A stretch of DNA of 64,000 nucleotides. It comes from Spirochaetota bacterium (GTDB lineage Bacteria > Spirochaetota > UBA4802 > UBA5550). How positions within the stretch are numbered: position 1 is the first letter of the stretch; each line of letters starts with the position of its first letter. The notes beneath the pieces are model-generated. The model was not told where the DNA came from, did no database searches, and was given only the letters and a program-made list of their open reading frames with translations. The stretch is taken from the NCBI GenBank assembly GCA_025457915.1, contig JALOTL010000004.1:1-64000 (forward strand), given 5' to 3'. Shown here one piece after another: positions 8,152-23,363 of the stretch. The translations under genes and the position numbers were made by a program.

Positions 8152-9715
8152 GCCGGCAGTCCCTGATTCGAACGGGAAACAACCACGCGCCGGAACCGGG
8201 CGGCCGGGCCTTGCCGCGTTCAGGAGGGCGGCCCAGATTTCATCCTTTTCACTCCTGGCCTTTATAATATGGAATACGAAGTATCCCCCCGGCAGTTTCA
8301 TCAACCCGGACTTTTTATTCAAACTGGACCCGTTCGTGATGCTGAGCGCGTCGATAGCGGAAAGGGTCCTTCTCCCCGGGCTTGCGCTGTCCGCGGCGAC
8401 CCTGGCCGTCACGGCCATGTTCGGCAGGATATTCTGCGGGTTCATATGCCCGCTCGGCGCGATCATGGACTTCACCTCCTGGATAAAAAAACTCGTGTTT
8501 AAAAGACCGGCCTCTGAACCGGAACCCTCGCCGTTCAGGCACCTTAAATACATCCCCCTCGCCGCGGTAATGGCAGCCGCGCTGTTCGGGCACCAGTTTT
8601 CATGGATGATAGATCCCGTTACGATTTTCGTCAGGTCGTTTTCAATGAACGTCCACCCGCTGGCGAATGGCGCGATAGACCGGTCGATGGAGGGGCTGAT
8701 AAAGCTGAGCGGCTACAACGAATCCATCGACGCGCTGTACAACGCCATGAGGGAAAGCATCCTCAGCCAGTCGAGCCCGTCTTTCCCGCATTCAGGAACT
8801 ATCCTGGCGGTTTTCCTGGCCGTGCTCGTTCTCGTTTTCGTAAAAAGAAGGTTATGGTGCAGGTACCTGTGCCCGCTTGGCGCCCTGCTCGCTATTTTTG
8901 CAAGGAAGACGCCCTACGCGAGGACCGCGGAAGGGTGCAGGGAGAACTGCAGGGCCTGCAGGAACGACTGCAGGATGAACGCCATCAGGGGCGACGGATC
9001 GTACCTCCCCGAGGAATGCGTGCTCTGCTTCGACTGCATCGGGACGTGCCCGTGGCAGAAGACATCCTTCGGATTCAGGCTTCCCGGACCACGCGCGGAA
9101 AAAATGACAGGCGGCGGTACAACCATGACCAGGAACAGGTTCCTCGCGTCGGCTTCGACCCTGGCCATTTGCCTGATGGACTGCCGGGCCTTCGCAGGCG
9201 CGCCGGAAGGACTGCTCCGCCCGCCGTCCTCATTGCCTGAAGAAAAATTCCTGAATCGATGCATAAGGTGCGGAAACTGCATGAAGGTATGTCCCACCAA
9301 CTTCATACATCCGGCGGACCTGTCATCCGGACTTTCAGGGATCTGGTCCCCCCGCCTTAATACGGCCATCGGGTACTGCGAATACAACTGCGACCTCTGC
9401 GGCAGGGTTTGTCCAACGGGCGCGATCGAAGCGTTTTTACCCGCTACTAAATGGAAAAAAAAGATAGGCATGGCCGAAATAGACAAATCATTATGCCTTC
9501 CATGGGCCAAAGGCGAAAACTGCATAGTGTGCGAGGAGCATTGTCCCGTGCCTGAAAAGGCGGTTAAACTGAATAAGAAAACAGCCGGGGGCGTGAGACT
9601 CTACCTCCCCCGGATTGACGCGGACCTCTGCATCGGTTGCGCGATATGCGAATTCAAGTGCCCGGTCAAACCAAAAAAAGCCGTCATAATCAAACCGGTC
9701 GGGAGCAGGAAATGA
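8144..9715 (+). CDS. NapH-NapG-like membrane polyferredoxin fusion
   Basis: This 523-residue protein has two parts. Residues 1-~315 resemble NapH: membrane helices with the paired motifs CGFICPLGAI and CRYLCPLGAL, then Cys clusters CRENCRACRNDC and CVLCFDCIGTC. Residues ~325-523 resemble the NapG/MauM ferredoxin. They begin with a second signal-like helix (TRNRFLASASTLAICLMDC) and then carry four Cys clusters (CIRCGNCMKVC, CDLCGRVC, CIVCEEHC, CIGCAICEFKC). It should move electrons from the quinol pool to periplasmic iron-sulfur clusters. The partner is unknown, but DUF362 is translationally overlapped upstream. The NapH and NapG parts are usually separate genes. Confidence 0.88.
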   Translation: MREPAVPDSNGKQPRAGTGRPGLAAFRRAAQISSFSLLAFIIWNTKYPPGSFINPDFLFKLDPFVMLSASIAERVLLPGLALSAATLAVTAMFGRIFCGFICPLGAIMDFTSWIKKLVFKRPASEPEPSPFRHLKYIPLAAVMAAALFGHQFSWMIDPVTIFVRSFSMNVHPLANGAIDRSMEGLIKLSGYNESIDALYNAMRESILSQSSPSFPHSGTILAVFLAVLVLVFVKRRLWCRYLCPLGALLAIFARKTPYARTAEGCRENCRACRNDCRMNAIRGDGSYLPEECVLCFDCIGTCPWQKTSFGFRLPGPRAEKMTGGGTTMTRNRFLASASTLAICLMDCRAFAGAPEGLLRPPSSLPEEKFLNRCIRCGNCMKVCPTNFIHPADLSSGLSGIWSPRLNTAIGYCEYNCDLCGRVCPTGAIEAFLPATKWKKKIGMAEIDKSLCLPWAKGENCIVCEEHCPVPEKAVKLNKKTAGGVRLYLPRIDADLCIGCAICEFKCPVKPKKAVIIKPVGSRK

Positions 9716-10395
9716 AAATGGGAAAAGGCAGCCTGTACGTCATAGCGTCTCCTATAGGCAACATCGAGGACATCACGCTTCGGGCCATCAGGATACTCAG
9801 GGAGGAGGCGGATTTAATCTACTGCGAGGACACGCGGCATACGAAAAAAATCCTGGCGGCCTACGGGATCAGCGCCCCGGCCATGTCCCTGCACGCGCAT
9901 TCCTCTGAAACAAAAATCAGGAAGGCAGTGGAATACATGAACGCGGGAAACAGCGCCGTTTACATGACCGATTCCGGAACGCCGTCGATATCTGATCCCG
10001 GCGCGAAGCTGGTCAGGGCCGCAATCGAAGCCGGGATCGGCGTCATACCCGTGCCCGGCCCGTCCGCTCTCGCATCGGCAGTGTCCGTTTCCGGGTTCAC
10101 GGGAAAAAATATCATTTTCTCCGGATTTTTAAGCAAAAAAGAAGGCCGCAGAAAAAACGAACTGAAAAAACTGGCCGATTTTGAAGGGATGATAGTCGTT
10201 TACGAGTCTCCATACAGGATCAGGGGACTTCTGGCGGATATAGCGCAGGTTTTCCCCGAATCGAACGTGTTCGTGGCCAGGGAAATGACCAAGCTTTACG
10301 AGGAATATCTTTCCTTTAAAGGCACTGACGCATTAAATGCAACCGCTGAGATGAAGGAACTCGGTGAATTTACAGTCCTTATTGACAACGGGTAA
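9712..10395 (+). CDS. rsmI: 16S rRNA (cytidine-1402-2'-O)-methyltransferase
   Basis: RsmI methylates the ribose of C1402 in the decoding centre using SAM. The family signature is clear: LYVIASPIGNIEDITLRAIRIL at the N-terminus, then ADLIYCEDTRHTKKIL, MTDSGTPSISDPGAKLV and VPGPSALASAVSVSGF. The start overlaps the preceding stop (ATGA at 9712-9715). A second ATG at 9718 is equally well placed behind AGGA. The position after the ferredoxin gene suggests one transcript, although the functions look unrelated. Confidence 0.96.
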   Translation: MKMGKGSLYVIASPIGNIEDITLRAIRILREEADLIYCEDTRHTKKILAAYGISAPAMSLHAHSSETKIRKAVEYMNAGNSAVYMTDSGTPSISDPGAKLVRAAIEAGIGVIPVPGPSALASAVSVSGFTGKNIIFSGFLSKKEGRRKNELKKLADFEGMIVVYESPYRIRGLLADIAQVFPESNVFVAREMTKLYEEYLSFKGTDALNATAEMKELGEFTVLIDNG

Positions 10396-10612
10396 GGTTC
10401 ATTCGAAGGTATTTTCTCCAGATTCATTAAACAGGGGCTCTCAATTCTTATCACATTCAATTTCAAACCTTCTATTGAATTCAGGCATGTATATTTATCT
10501 TAAACCGATTTTATCTGAAAATTTTATGTTTTAAGACGGCTTTAGGAAAAATTTTCCCAAAATTCAAAAAAAAATTAAAAAAACCCCATTTTTTGTATAA
10601 AATATTAAAGAA

Positions 10613-10641
10613 TTGACAAATTATACCGATACTATTATTAG
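10613..10641 (+). promoter_or_regulatory. Candidate sigma-70 promoter of flgM
   Basis: A perfect TTGACA (10613-10618), a 17-base spacer and TATTAG (10636-10641) lie 21 bases before the flgM start. The ~200 bases before it are AT-rich with A-tracts and no convincing gene. Vegetative rather than sigma28 control is implied. Confidence 0.6.
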
Positions 10642-10661: not shown

Positions 10662-10955
10662 ATGGTAATCGATAAAATAGGAAACATAAACAACATCATC
10701 GAGCCTAAGAAGAGCAGGCCCGTAGCCGGAGAAAAAGAGGTAAAGAAAGGCGATTCCGTCCAGATTTCCTCCGAAGGCAAAAAGGCGGCAGAATCTGCCC
10801 GCCTCGCCCAGATGATCAAGGAATCACCGGATATCAGGGTGGACAGGGTCAACGAGATCAAGGAAAAGATAGCAAGCGGCGAATACAACTTCAACGATGC
10901 CAAGGTGCTGGAGATGGTCGCCGACAGGATAGCCAATTTTCTTCTTAAAAAATAG
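10662..10955 (+). CDS. flgM: Anti-sigma-28 factor FlgM
   Basis: This 97-residue protein binds sigma28 and holds it inactive until the hook-basal body is complete and FlgM is exported. The C-terminal sigma-binding part is diagnostic: SPDIRVDRVNEIKEKIASG, then EYNFNDAKVLEMVADRIANF. The N-terminal half is flexible and lysine-rich, as in other FlgM proteins. It stands alone, with its own promoter and terminator, away from the sigma28 gene at 22.5-23.4 kb. The ribosome site (AGGG) is weak. Confidence 0.94.
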   Translation: MVIDKIGNINNIIEPKKSRPVAGEKEVKKGDSVQISSEGKKAAESARLAQMIKESPDIRVDRVNEIKEKIASGEYNFNDAKVLEMVADRIANFLLKK

Positions 10956-10980: not shown

Positions 10981-11013
10981 AAAAGCGGAGATGTAAATAT
11001 GTCCGCTTTTTTT
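10981..11013 (+). terminator. Intrinsic terminator of flgM
   Basis: AAAAGCGGA (10981-10989) pairs with TCCGCTTTT (11002-11010) around a 12-base loop, and the T-run continues to 11013. It lies 26 bases after the flgM stop codon. Confidence 0.88.
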
Positions 11014-11074
11014 ATGACCGGAACTGGCGGAAGCGAATAAAAAACGGATTTACGCGGATTTCAACAAGAAAAAT

Positions 11075-12253
11075 ATGGCGTCAACTGTCACAATGAACGA
11101 TTTAAAGCCGGACTTCCATCTTCCAACAGAGGTATATATACAGCAGGACATGGCCGGCGCGGTACCCGATATCATAAAAAAAATCGGGAAAAGGGCGTTC
11201 TTCCTGATGACGACAAACGACTTCGAACAATTCAGCGAGAAGATCGAAAAAATATCCGATTCCCTTAAAAACGCCGACGTGGGCTGCATAGTATACGATG
11301 AACTCCCGTCCAATCCAAACACCGAGGACATCGATGAGGCGGTTTCCTTCGCGAAAAAAACCAACTGCGATCTGGTGATAGGTTTCGGGGGCCTTGAATC
11401 CATAAACTCGGCCAAGGCCGTATCCCTCCTCGTGAACAATTACATCTTCTGCCATGACCTTTTCGAAAACACGGAGCCCCTTTCCCCGGCGCTTCCCTAC
11501 GTCAGCATGCCGGCGTATCCCATATACGGCTTTGAAATCGCGCCCATCTTCTTCATCGAGGAGATACAGGACCTGAGCAAAAAGGTGTACAGGAACCACC
11601 AGCTTTACCCGAGGGCGACTCTAGTGGACCCGGAAACGTCCACCATGATCGATGACAACAGGGCCATGAAGACCTCGATTTGCACGCTGGCATTATCGAG
11701 CGAATCGATAATCTCCAGGAACAACAACGACATCATCAATACATTCGCGCTGAAATCCATAGACCTGATATTCAGGAATCTCCCGCTTTCCTACAGGGAC
11801 CCGAAAAACCTGACCCCCAGAAGATATCTCTCCGCCGCATCCGTAATGTCCGGGATAGCCTTTTCTACGGCATACCTGTCGGCCTCGCTTGCGATAGCGC
11901 TGGCGCTCTCTTCAAAGACGGACCTGGACATTGAAAGCGCCATCAGCGTCATTCTTCCGCACATAATGGAGTTCAACCTGACTTCATCTCCGGGCAAATA
12001 CGTCCAGATGTCCAAGGTGATGGGTGAGGACGTAAGGGAGATAACGGTCATCGAGGCGGCGATAAAATCCGTGGAGGCGATCAGAAAGCTTGAAACCGAC
12101 ATGGAAATCCCGCAGAGGCTGTCCGGGTACAACATATCCAAAGCCATTTACAAGGACGTTGCCGATATCGCCGCGGGCTATCCGTTCATCGGAAACGCCC
12201 CGAGGGAGCTAACCCCGAGCGAAATAGAAACCATACTGATTGCCGCTTACTGA
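11075..12253 (+). CDS. Iron-containing alcohol dehydrogenase fold, catalytically degenerate
   Basis: The 392 residues align end to end with group III (iron) alcohol dehydrogenases such as FucO, including AFSTAYLS, SVILPHIMEFN and the C-terminal TPSEIETILIAAY. Every active-site feature is altered. The cofactor loop GGGSxxD is GGLESIN. By my hand alignment the four metal ligands of FucO (Asp196, His200, His263, His277) are Cys, Leu, Leu and Ile. It therefore looks like a folded but non-catalytic homologue, perhaps a binding or regulatory protein. The frame is intact with a normal start (ATG 11075), although the ribosome site is weak. It sits between flgM and cheW. Confidence 0.8.
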   Translation: MASTVTMNDLKPDFHLPTEVYIQQDMAGAVPDIIKKIGKRAFFLMTTNDFEQFSEKIEKISDSLKNADVGCIVYDELPSNPNTEDIDEAVSFAKKTNCDLVIGFGGLESINSAKAVSLLVNNYIFCHDLFENTEPLSPALPYVSMPAYPIYGFEIAPIFFIEEIQDLSKKVYRNHQLYPRATLVDPETSTMIDDNRAMKTSICTLALSSESIISRNNNDIINTFALKSIDLIFRNLPLSYRDPKNLTPRRYLSAASVMSGIAFSTAYLSASLAIALALSSKTDLDIESAISVILPHIMEFNLTSSPGKYVQMSKVMGEDVREITVIEAAIKSVEAIRKLETDMEIPQRLSGYNISKAIYKDVADIAAGYPFIGNAPRELTPSEIETILIAAY

Positions 12254-12268
12254 CAGGAATGAACCGGC

Positions 12269-12739
12269 CTACATGCCGGCTACTTCATCGCTTGAAAAAA
12301 TCTTGTGGATGTCGAGGATGACCACGAAACCGCCCTCGAGCTTCGCTATACCGACAATATATTTGCCCGATATGCCCTTCACCACCGGGGGCGGCGGCTC
12401 GATTTCGCCTGAATTGACCTTGATGACGTGGCTTACGGAATCTATCGCGAGGCCCACCTGTTTGCCGCCTATGTCAACGACGATGGCCCTTGTTTTTTTC
12501 TGATCCTTGCCGGACCTTATGCCGAACCTGATGCTCAAATCAACTATGGGAATGACCTTGCCCCTGAGGTCCATTACACCCATGATGTATGGATTGGACT
12601 TGGGAAGCTTTGTCACAGACGGAAGTTTGAGTATTTCCTGCACCTGAAGAATGTCTATGCCGTATTCCTCTACGCCTATCTTGAAGCATACTATCTGTAT
12701 TGATGCGAAAAGATTCTGCTTTTCTTCCTTTACTGCCAT
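12269..12739 (-). CDS. cheW: Chemotaxis coupling protein CheW
   Basis: This 156-residue CheW domain links chemoreceptors to the CheA kinase at the cell pole. The family pattern is plain: IQIVCFKIGVEEYGIDILQVQEIL, TKLPKSNPYIMGVMDLRGKVIPIVDL, then VGLAIDSVSHVIKV. It is convergent with the pseudo-dehydrogenase gene, 15 bases apart. No CheA or receptor gene is in the window. Upstream there is only a weak promoter candidate. Confidence 0.95.
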   Translation of the reverse strand: MAVKEEKQNLFASIQIVCFKIGVEEYGIDILQVQEILKLPSVTKLPKSNPYIMGVMDLRGKVIPIVDLSIRFGIRSGKDQKKTRAIVVDIGGKQVGLAIDSVSHVIKVNSGEIEPPPPVVKGISGKYIVGIAKLEGGFVVILDIHKIFSSDEVAGM

Positions 12740-12978: not shown

Positions 12979-13698
12979 CTATAAAAAATAACCATACATG
13001 TAAAATGCAATACCTGATAAGACAAAAAACAGGACCTTGAAAAAAACCGGCCCCCTTCCCCTTATGAACATATCGAACAGACCGACAATGATGCCGAAAA
13101 ATGCTGAAACTGCGCCCATTGCGACATAACTGTACTGGAAATAATAAAAAACCGCGCCTGATGCGATAACCCCTATTGAAAAATCTATGACATCTATAAT
13201 ATTAATGCCGAATCGCGAGGAACCGGTGCCTCCTTCTTCATCAACCTGGGCCAGGTCTTCCTTTTTGAAATACCTCTTTTTTGTCTGCTCCCGCAGCTCC
13301 TCCTTTTTTGTTTTGGGCCTTTTGCTTTTTTTTGAATAACTTATCCCGTAATTATTTCCGATCAGCCTGAAGGCGTCCCTCTGGGGCAAAGTCCTGAAAA
13401 CATCCGCCCTTGATGAAAATTTATCCTCAAAACCGAAGGACCTGCCGGTGGAAACGCTTTTTTCGGCAGTTACCTTACCGTTCGTTATGACCGAATAATA
13501 CGGATTCCCGCCCTCTTCGGCCACTTCGACGTATAGCCTTATCTTCTTGTCCCTGATGTTGTAATCAACCCTGACGTAATCACCGTTTTCCGTATTCATA
13601 TACAGGGTTCTCTGGAAGCCCCTGATCTCAGAAGGCCTCTTTTTCCAGCCGGTCTGCTGGATTTCGGGCTGTCTATTTGGCTTTTTTATCATCCGCAT
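12979..13698 (-). CDS. Unknown protein with C-terminal membrane segments
   Basis: I do not recognise this protein. The start is placed at 13698 (GGAT 8 bases ahead) because the upstream ATG at 13752 lies on the far side of the terminator hairpin 13712-13749. The 239 residues have a basic, soluble N-terminal half with beta-rich stretches (YVRVDYNIRDKKIRLYVEV). A lysine/arginine-rich segment follows (KKSKRPKTKKEELREQTKKR). The C-terminus has three hydrophobic helices (GVIASGAVFYYFQYSYVAMG, AVSAFFGIIVGLFDMF, FFKVLFFVLSGIAFYMY). It is probably an inner-membrane protein with a large cytoplasmic domain. Confidence 0.65.
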   Translation of the reverse strand: MRMIKKPNRQPEIQQTGWKKRPSEIRGFQRTLYMNTENGDYVRVDYNIRDKKIRLYVEVAEEGGNPYYSVITNGKVTAEKSVSTGRSFGFEDKFSSRADVFRTLPQRDAFRLIGNNYGISYSKKSKRPKTKKEELREQTKKRYFKKEDLAQVDEEGGTGSSRFGINIIDVIDFSIGVIASGAVFYYFQYSYVAMGAVSAFFGIIVGLFDMFIRGRGPVFFKVLFFVLSGIAFYMYGYFL

Positions 13699-13711
13699 AA
13701 AGTGAAATCCA

Positions 13712-13749
13712 AATAAAAGAGATTGGCCCGCAAGCCAATCTCTTTTATT
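13712..13749 (-). terminator. Strong hairpin terminator, symmetrical on both strands
   Basis: A perfect 16-bp stem (13712-13727 with 13734-13749) encloses a 6-base loop CCGCAA. The lower stem is A/T-rich, so TCTTTTATT follows the GC core on either strand. It lies 14 bases after the COX24-type gene and marks the end of the long leftward flagellar/RNA block. Confidence 0.85.
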
Positions 13750-13763
13750 CATGAATAAATGTA

Positions 13764-22535: not shown

Positions 22536-23363
22536 CTAACCGACAATGTTGGATTTGATTCTTCCCAGCCTTCCGCGCAATCTCATAATGGCCTTGGTGT
22601 GCAGCTGTGAAACCCTGCTCTCGGTGACCTCAAGCACTTCGCCGATCTCCTTAAGCGTAAGATCTTCGTAATAATAAAGAACGATGACCTTTTTCTCCTT
22701 GTCAGGGAGCTTTTTAATCGCATCAATAATATAGTCGCGGATTTCCTGCTTTTCAATTAAAATATCCGGGTTCATGTTTTCAGGGGCTTCAAGGGTTTCC
22801 AGTATCGACAGCTCGTCGCTGTCGTCGCCCAGGTACCAGATATCGTTAAGGGACAGCATCGAGGTTCCGGACAGCTTGCTCAGTATCGCCTGGAATTCCT
22901 CAATGGCGATCCCGAGCTCCTTCGCGATCTCCTCGTCCTCGACGGTCCTTCCCAGCTTGTTCTCAAGATCGGAAATAACCTGTTCAATCTGCTTGGCCTT
23001 CTGCCTGATTGACCTGGGGATCCAGTCGATCGACCGGAGCTCGTCGAATATGGCGCCCCTGATCCTGGTCATGGCGTATGTTTTGAACTTGATCCCCCTG
23101 TCCGGATCAAATTTGTTTATGGCGTCTATCAGGCCGAAAATCCCGTATGATACGAGATCGTCGAACTCGATGCTTTGAGGCATGCCCATGGAAATCTTGC
23201 CTGCGACGTATTTAACCAGGGGAGAATACTTGATGACGAAGTAATCCCGGAGATCCTGCTCTGTCTTCTTGATGAATTGCTCCCAGAGCTTTTCTTCAGG
23301 TATGCCGTCTAGTTCCTTGAACTTTTTATTGTCCATATCCTTTACCCGGGAATCAACCCTCAT
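22536..23363 (-). CDS. fliA: Flagellar sigma factor 28 (FliA/WhiG type)
   Basis: This 275-residue sigma factor directs late flagellar gene transcription. Region 2 reads [41 protein letters not shown] and [28 protein letters not shown], a WhiG/FliA signature. Region 4 ends in [29 protein letters not shown]. It lacks region 1.1. An alternative start at 23336 (MDNKKFKEL) is possible, and both have weak ribosome sites. FlgM at 10.7 kb is its expected inhibitor. Confidence 0.96.

Follow-up and report, generated by a model that had tools for sequence, protein, structure and literature searches.

The locus and its genes

The stretch of DNA that we analysed, here called the window, comprises 64,000 nucleotides from a bacterium of the phylum Spirochaetota. 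On its forward strand a gene for RsmI, 16S rRNA methyltransferase I (9637..10395, named from its sequence; a neighbour cluster of 41 loci), is followed by flgM (10662..10955), which encodes an anti-sigma-28 factor of 97 aa (PF04316, 2.2e-13; TIGR03824, over the cut-off), and by a reading frame at 11075..12253 that starts with ATG, codes for 392 aa and contains no internal stop. We call its product PSE, a pseudoenzyme with the fold of the iron-containing alcohol dehydrogenases (Fe-ADHs) but without their metal ligands, and use the same short name for its family. On the reverse strand, and convergent with PSE, lies cheW (12269..12739; PF01584, 6.1e-41, and synteny), and the first-pass annotation was right in describing an intact frame between flgM and cheW. 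A protein of 257 aa encoded next to cheW (12979..13752, reverse strand) is conserved within the order, at some 30 loci, and gave no match in Pfam or NCBIfam. Further on, 10-20 kb past PSE, the window holds a flagellar cluster with fliA, flhA, flhB, fliR, fliP, fliO and others, several of them named from sequence. The fliA gene (22536..23363, reverse strand; TIGR02479, 9.5e-87, over the cut-off) encodes sigma-28, the expected target of FlgM.

Upstream of flgM there is a sigma-28-like promoter, TAAAGAAT-N12-CCGATA (10606..10631, forward strand), which can also be written TAAAG-N15-CCGATA and is the sole exact match in the window. Most genomes of the order have the same motif ahead of flgM, at about position -56, against a background of 0.016 per 320 bp. 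The gap between flgM and PSE contains a hairpin resembling an intrinsic terminator, AAAAGCGGA...TCCGCTTTTTTT, with a U-run (10981..11014, forward strand); such hairpins occur in this gap in 40 of 65 genomes, compared with 3% of random 120-bp windows. No sigma-70 promoter was seen when the forward strand of the gap was searched. Since the promoter precedes flgM but the hairpin precedes PSE, transcription of PSE would depend either on reduced read-through from upstream or on a promoter of its own, and as the hairpin recurs in many genomes co-transcription is not assured. The case for simple co-transcription of flgM and PSE is thus weakened.

A dehydrogenase fold without its metal and NAD sites

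Two Pfam profiles, PF00465.25 (1.3e-27, profile 1-168 of 168) and PF25137 (7e-29, profile 8-194 of 194), are both covered end to end by the protein, which is therefore a full-length Fe-ADH homologue, in line with the alignment to FucO-type dehydrogenases that had been made by eye. Using E. coli FucO from NC_000913 as the reference, alignments with MAFFT and with HMMER to PDB chains agree that D196 is replaced by Cys203 (11681..11683), H200 by Leu207 (11693..11695), H263 by Leu272 (11888..11890) and H277 by Ile286 (11930..11932), all on the forward strand, and that the NAD loop GGGSxxD, GGGSPQD in FucO, has become GGLESIN (residues 105-111, 11387..11407, forward strand). The substitutions first read by eye were exact, for the four ligands as well as for the loop. 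The ligands have not been displaced to nearby positions, because the contexts of the ligand motifs align without gaps in both alignments (KTSICTLALSSES vs ATGVDALTHAIEG between PSE and FucO; second context LAIALALSSKTDLDIESAISVILP). A further NAD motif, TTxxG, is lost as well. Across the family the residues G98, S99, D102, T141, G143 and N366, conserved in the dehydrogenases, are mostly lost, and the structural positions G96, G97, P139, D178, P286, E290, P367 and R368 are kept.

The fold itself is retained, as had been proposed. AlphaFold2, with 35 family sequences as input, gave a model with a pLDDT of 92.8 and a pTM of 0.90, whose best matches among solved structures in Foldseek are Fe-ADHs only (TM 0.90-0.92), and its overlay on FucO (1rrm) has a TM of 0.90 and an rmsd of 1.8-1.9 Å. 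A PSE from a T. denticola-like (Treponema-like) genome, about 20% identical to that of the window, was modelled with a pLDDT of 92.1. The genome of the window also encodes a true Fe-ADH with all ligands, separate from PSE (L031, contig C8). Given the known essential residues, the fact that all PSEs have lost the metal and NAD motifs argues strongly against ordinary Fe-ADH chemistry, and judged from the sequences we infer that PSE does not carry out metal-dependent NAD(P) redox reactions.

Contig C8 of the genome carries a second degenerate Fe-ADH, with T/H/D/R at the ligand positions (L062, 3758-5029 and 5617-6801, reverse strand). Some 600 bp, with a gene for 180 aa, separate it from an active Fe-ADH (D/H/H/H), and a gene resembling aldehyde-ferredoxin oxidoreductase adjoins the pair, which may consist of an inactive and an active subunit. 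In seven other genomes the ligand positions of the degenerate protein read A/H/M/A, V/Q/M/P, R/E/E/R, V/Q/D/E, I/Q/E/T, V/H/E/P and L/Q/F/A. This protein (L062; L313-L319) is like PSE an Fe-ADH fold without the full ligand set from the same order, but unlike PSE it groups with the true dehydrogenases and is paired with an active one and not with flgM.

Conservation of the PSE family

A match was found in each of the 59 related genomes searched, and intact orthologues are present throughout the order of the window, with 46-63% identity, and in most of Spirochaetota, with 21-35% identity in the other families. Relatives in named contig records come from Leptospiraceae, Turneriella, Brevinema/Brevinematales and many Spirochaetota metagenome-assembled genomes, and "Brachyspira-like", "Treponema-like" and "Borrelia-like" are used here as inferred labels for genome groups. 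In a tree that combined 53 PSE sequences with 29 true dehydrogenases the PSE family forms one side of a single branch (SH-aLRT 100), with a topology that broadly matches the family groupings, and close pairs have dN/dS values of 0.01-0.09. Only one broken frame, a single TAG in genome G126, is found among the listed orthologues. The family is best read as ancient and vertically inherited in spirochaetes.

Of 154 family rows surveyed, in which some species are counted twice because two collections were used, 119 keep none of the four metal ligands, 33 keep one and two keep two; the Asp of the GGGSxxD loop is kept in none. The loss is common to every member of the clade, whereas the replacing residues vary. 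They are small or hydrophobic in the order of the window (C/S/A/G-L/I-L-I/V), A-Y-N/T-F in Leptospirales-like, E-Y-M-Q in Brevinematales-like and S-L-I-K in Brachyspira-like genomes, and D-x-Y-K in many Spirochaetia-like members, where a salt bridge between D and K may, judging by the residues, stand in place of the metal. The first-pass annotation had suggested a search for spirochaete homologues that keep the same substitutions; the loss is indeed conserved, but the exact residues differ by subclade.

Non-spirochaete matches in the contig scan were nearly all true dehydrogenases with ligands. One contig titled Candidatus Hydrogenedentota (L103) carries a ligand-less copy resembling PSE, with GGLDTIN in the loop and A/Y/T/F at the ligand positions, and is perhaps a mis-binned spirochaete contig. 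The impression from a single profile that Treponema-like genomes have true dehydrogenases only was overturned when the neighbourhoods of FlgM, and a classifier built on two profiles, revealed divergent PSEs there.

Linkage to flgM

The order RsmI, FlgM, PSE is found throughout the order of the window and also in families with otherwise different neighbours. FlgM is directly upstream of PSE in 65 genomes with many family codes, PSE follows directly at 34 of 47 further FlgM loci (one of these being a very weak match), and in several distant families the gap is just 0-22 bp, as in an operon. The genes downstream of PSE change by lineage, to CheW, LarB/LarC-like or a SpoU methylase, and cheW adjoins it within the order of the window only; flgM is the constant partner.

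The linkage is broken in Brachyspira-like f15, in Brevinematales-like f20, f30 and f36, in f32, f34, f44 and f37, and in Leptospira-like genomes. In the three Brevinematales-like families one neighbour of PSE is a gene for an AEC-type transporter (PF03547); the other neighbour, in f20 and f36, is a gene like a GAF-SpoIIE phosphatase, a typical protein of regulatory signalling (flanking genes at L199, 2061-3812 and 5042-5962, and L201, 2080-3840). Two T. denticola-like genomes have PSE 35 bp from, and divergent with, fliQ-fliR-flhB-flhA and not at flgM. In Treponema-like genomes the gene after PSE encodes a SpoU-type rRNA methylase, which travels with PSE to fliQ and, in a genome without PSE, still follows flgM (L309, 11365-12150; L192, 1430-2314; L211, 3967-4776; L245, 2753-3631).

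Among the genomes with a listed top-scoring PSE, 146 of 150 have FlgM (E<=0.01); of the remaining four, three are fragmented assemblies and one has a weak adjacent FlgM. Borrelia-like f39 has neither FlgM nor PSE, with FlhA present and no FliA over the cut-off; non-flagellate f49 lacks FlgM, FlhA and PSE, all its matches fitting the true-dehydrogenase profile better; and in flagellated f26, whose genomes are 75-83% complete, FlhA and FliA are present, FlgM was undetected and there is no PSE. These counts are uncorrected for shared ancestry, and there are about three independent absences. FlgM without PSE is found in a T. pallidum-sized genome, in f47, f51 and f53 and in parts of f43 and f45. 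The co-occurrence is thus one-directional, PSE being rare without FlgM and FlgM sometimes occurring without PSE, which argues that PSE depends on FlgM more than the reverse. PSE is also dispensable for flagella, since several flagellated lineages with FlgM and FliA lack it.

The T. pallidum-sized genome (G096, 1.14 Mb; L250) has kept flgM and lost PSE, and a search of it for an Fe-ADH-like match of any kind found none. A mirror-tree comparison did not single out FlgM, the partial r of 0.47 for PSE and FlgM standing against 0.52 for the control pair FlgM and RsmI, and co-evolution by this measure was dropped as unspecific.

Discussion

The FucO/DhaT-type enzymes share with PSE the full-length match to PF00465 and PF25137 and the two-domain fold, but PSE has no metal ligands, GGGSxxD or TTxxG and forms a separate clade. 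Its best NCBIfam profile is that of ErcA of Pseudomonas aeruginosa (NF041833, "alcohol dehydrogenase-like regulatory protein"), with 157 bits, far under the cut-off of 550. ErcA is an Fe-ADH-family protein that has been implicated in regulation (PMC12997753, citing Hempel 2013), so that a member of the family had been given such a role before PSE; it has been connected with ethanol oxidation and with a sensor kinase, and the PSE of the window instead with flgM. The flgM beside PSE is of the same kind as that of the anti-sigma-28 system of T. denticola (TDE0201). FlgM in that species antagonises or stabilises FliA (PMC9481697, PMC12655853), and according to a review (PMC12655853) less flagellin is expressed when FlgM is lost. 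No dehydrogenase appears in PMC9481697, and our search of a literature library found no paper that describes PSE, or that joins FlgM with a spirochete alcohol dehydrogenase or with a pseudoenzyme.

That PSE is a conserved spirochaete pseudoenzyme with an Fe-ADH fold we regard as nearly certain. The loss of active-site residues could by itself suggest a functionless, decaying pseudogene, but random decay was looked for in the homologues and is refuted by frames that are intact apart from the one TAG, by strong purifying values of dN/dS (0.01-0.09), by losses shared across one phylum-wide clade and by the confident fold, and this explanation is left with practically no weight. It is less improbable, but still unlikely, that PSE is a neofunctionalised enzyme with a cleft rebuilt for a metal-independent reaction or ligand, and that its linkage to flgM is incidental synteny. 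The GG of the loop, K114, P146, D185, P295 and P376-R377 do stay conserved, and there is a small conserved set specific to PSE (H296, T303, E334 and R348), but the residues at the ligand positions differ by subclade (hydrophobic, E-Y-M-Q or D-x-Y-K), which speaks against a common replacement catalytic set, and the presence of PSE tracks FlgM and not an evident metabolic niche.

Two further roles seem quite improbable to us. Fe-ADHs are oligomeric, and the tandem of active and degenerate dehydrogenases elsewhere in the genome, in the same order, could be taken to mean that PSE is a non-catalytic subunit that stabilises or regulates an active paralogue; that tandem is however of another lineage and linked to the oxidoreductase-like gene, while PSE is linked to flgM and not to an active dehydrogenase, and in two Treponema-like genomes stands next to fliQ. 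A service in translation or rRNA modification would fit the theme of RsmI, which is upstream nearly everywhere that FlgM and PSE occur together, and of the SpoU methylase, which comes after PSE even where PSE has moved to fliQ, but the order of the window has no SpoU gene after PSE, RsmI remains with FlgM where PSE leaves, and it is again the presence of FlgM that PSE tracks.

The metal and cofactor sites are lost, yet the protein is strongly conserved and usually adjacent to flgM, and an old enzyme fold has thus probably been recruited in spirochaetes for a binding or regulatory job related to the flagellum. The earlier proposal of a regulatory or binding pseudoenzyme that has lost catalysis is hence the best reading, in which the complete loss of activity and the regulatory role are both presumed. 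A role in the flagellar regulon is rather likely on the grounds of linkage and co-occurrence, and the strong conservation together with the flagellar linkage suggests PSE as a binder in FlgM/sigma-28 control. Taken as a whole, we put the probability that PSE is an ancient pseudoenzyme in this control, binding a protein or a ligand, at roughly 0.6.

We picture PSE as a cytoplasmic binding protein that would act at the FlgM/sigma-28 checkpoint while periplasmic flagella are assembled. In the most likely mechanism its dehydrogenase-shaped scaffold would bind FlgM, the complex of FlgM with FliA, or the export gate, and would in this way adjust the time during which FliA is held or protected by FlgM; the remodelled cleft might take up a small molecule that gates this action. 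The sigma-28-type promoter would drive flgM, and the terminator after it would keep PSE below FlgM through partial read-through, unless PSE has an unrecognised promoter of its own. Direct contact of PSE with FlgM or FliA is a tentative suggestion, which we hold to be rather less probable than its absence. The FlgM of T. denticola is unusual in stabilising FliA, which makes extra partners plausible.

Because profile libraries score the PSE genes as iron-containing alcohol dehydrogenases, metabolic models would be misled, and a protein conserved in bacteria like Leptospira, Brachyspira, Brevinema and Treponema would stay hidden. As a case of an NAD/metal enzyme fold that was retained after its chemistry was lost, PSE is also unusually deep. 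Spirochaetes build periplasmic flagella, and how sigma-28 controls the late genes of these has only begun to be understood; a conserved pseudoenzyme tied to flgM offers a concrete, deletable gene for this question. It is conceivable, if somewhat against the odds, that PSE is a phylum-wide regulator of flagellar late genes, which would join FlgM and FliA as a third player so far overlooked and possibly couple assembly to a metabolite bound in the old cofactor cleft, and if this is true it could help to explain why the FlgM of spirochaetes is unlike its counterparts.
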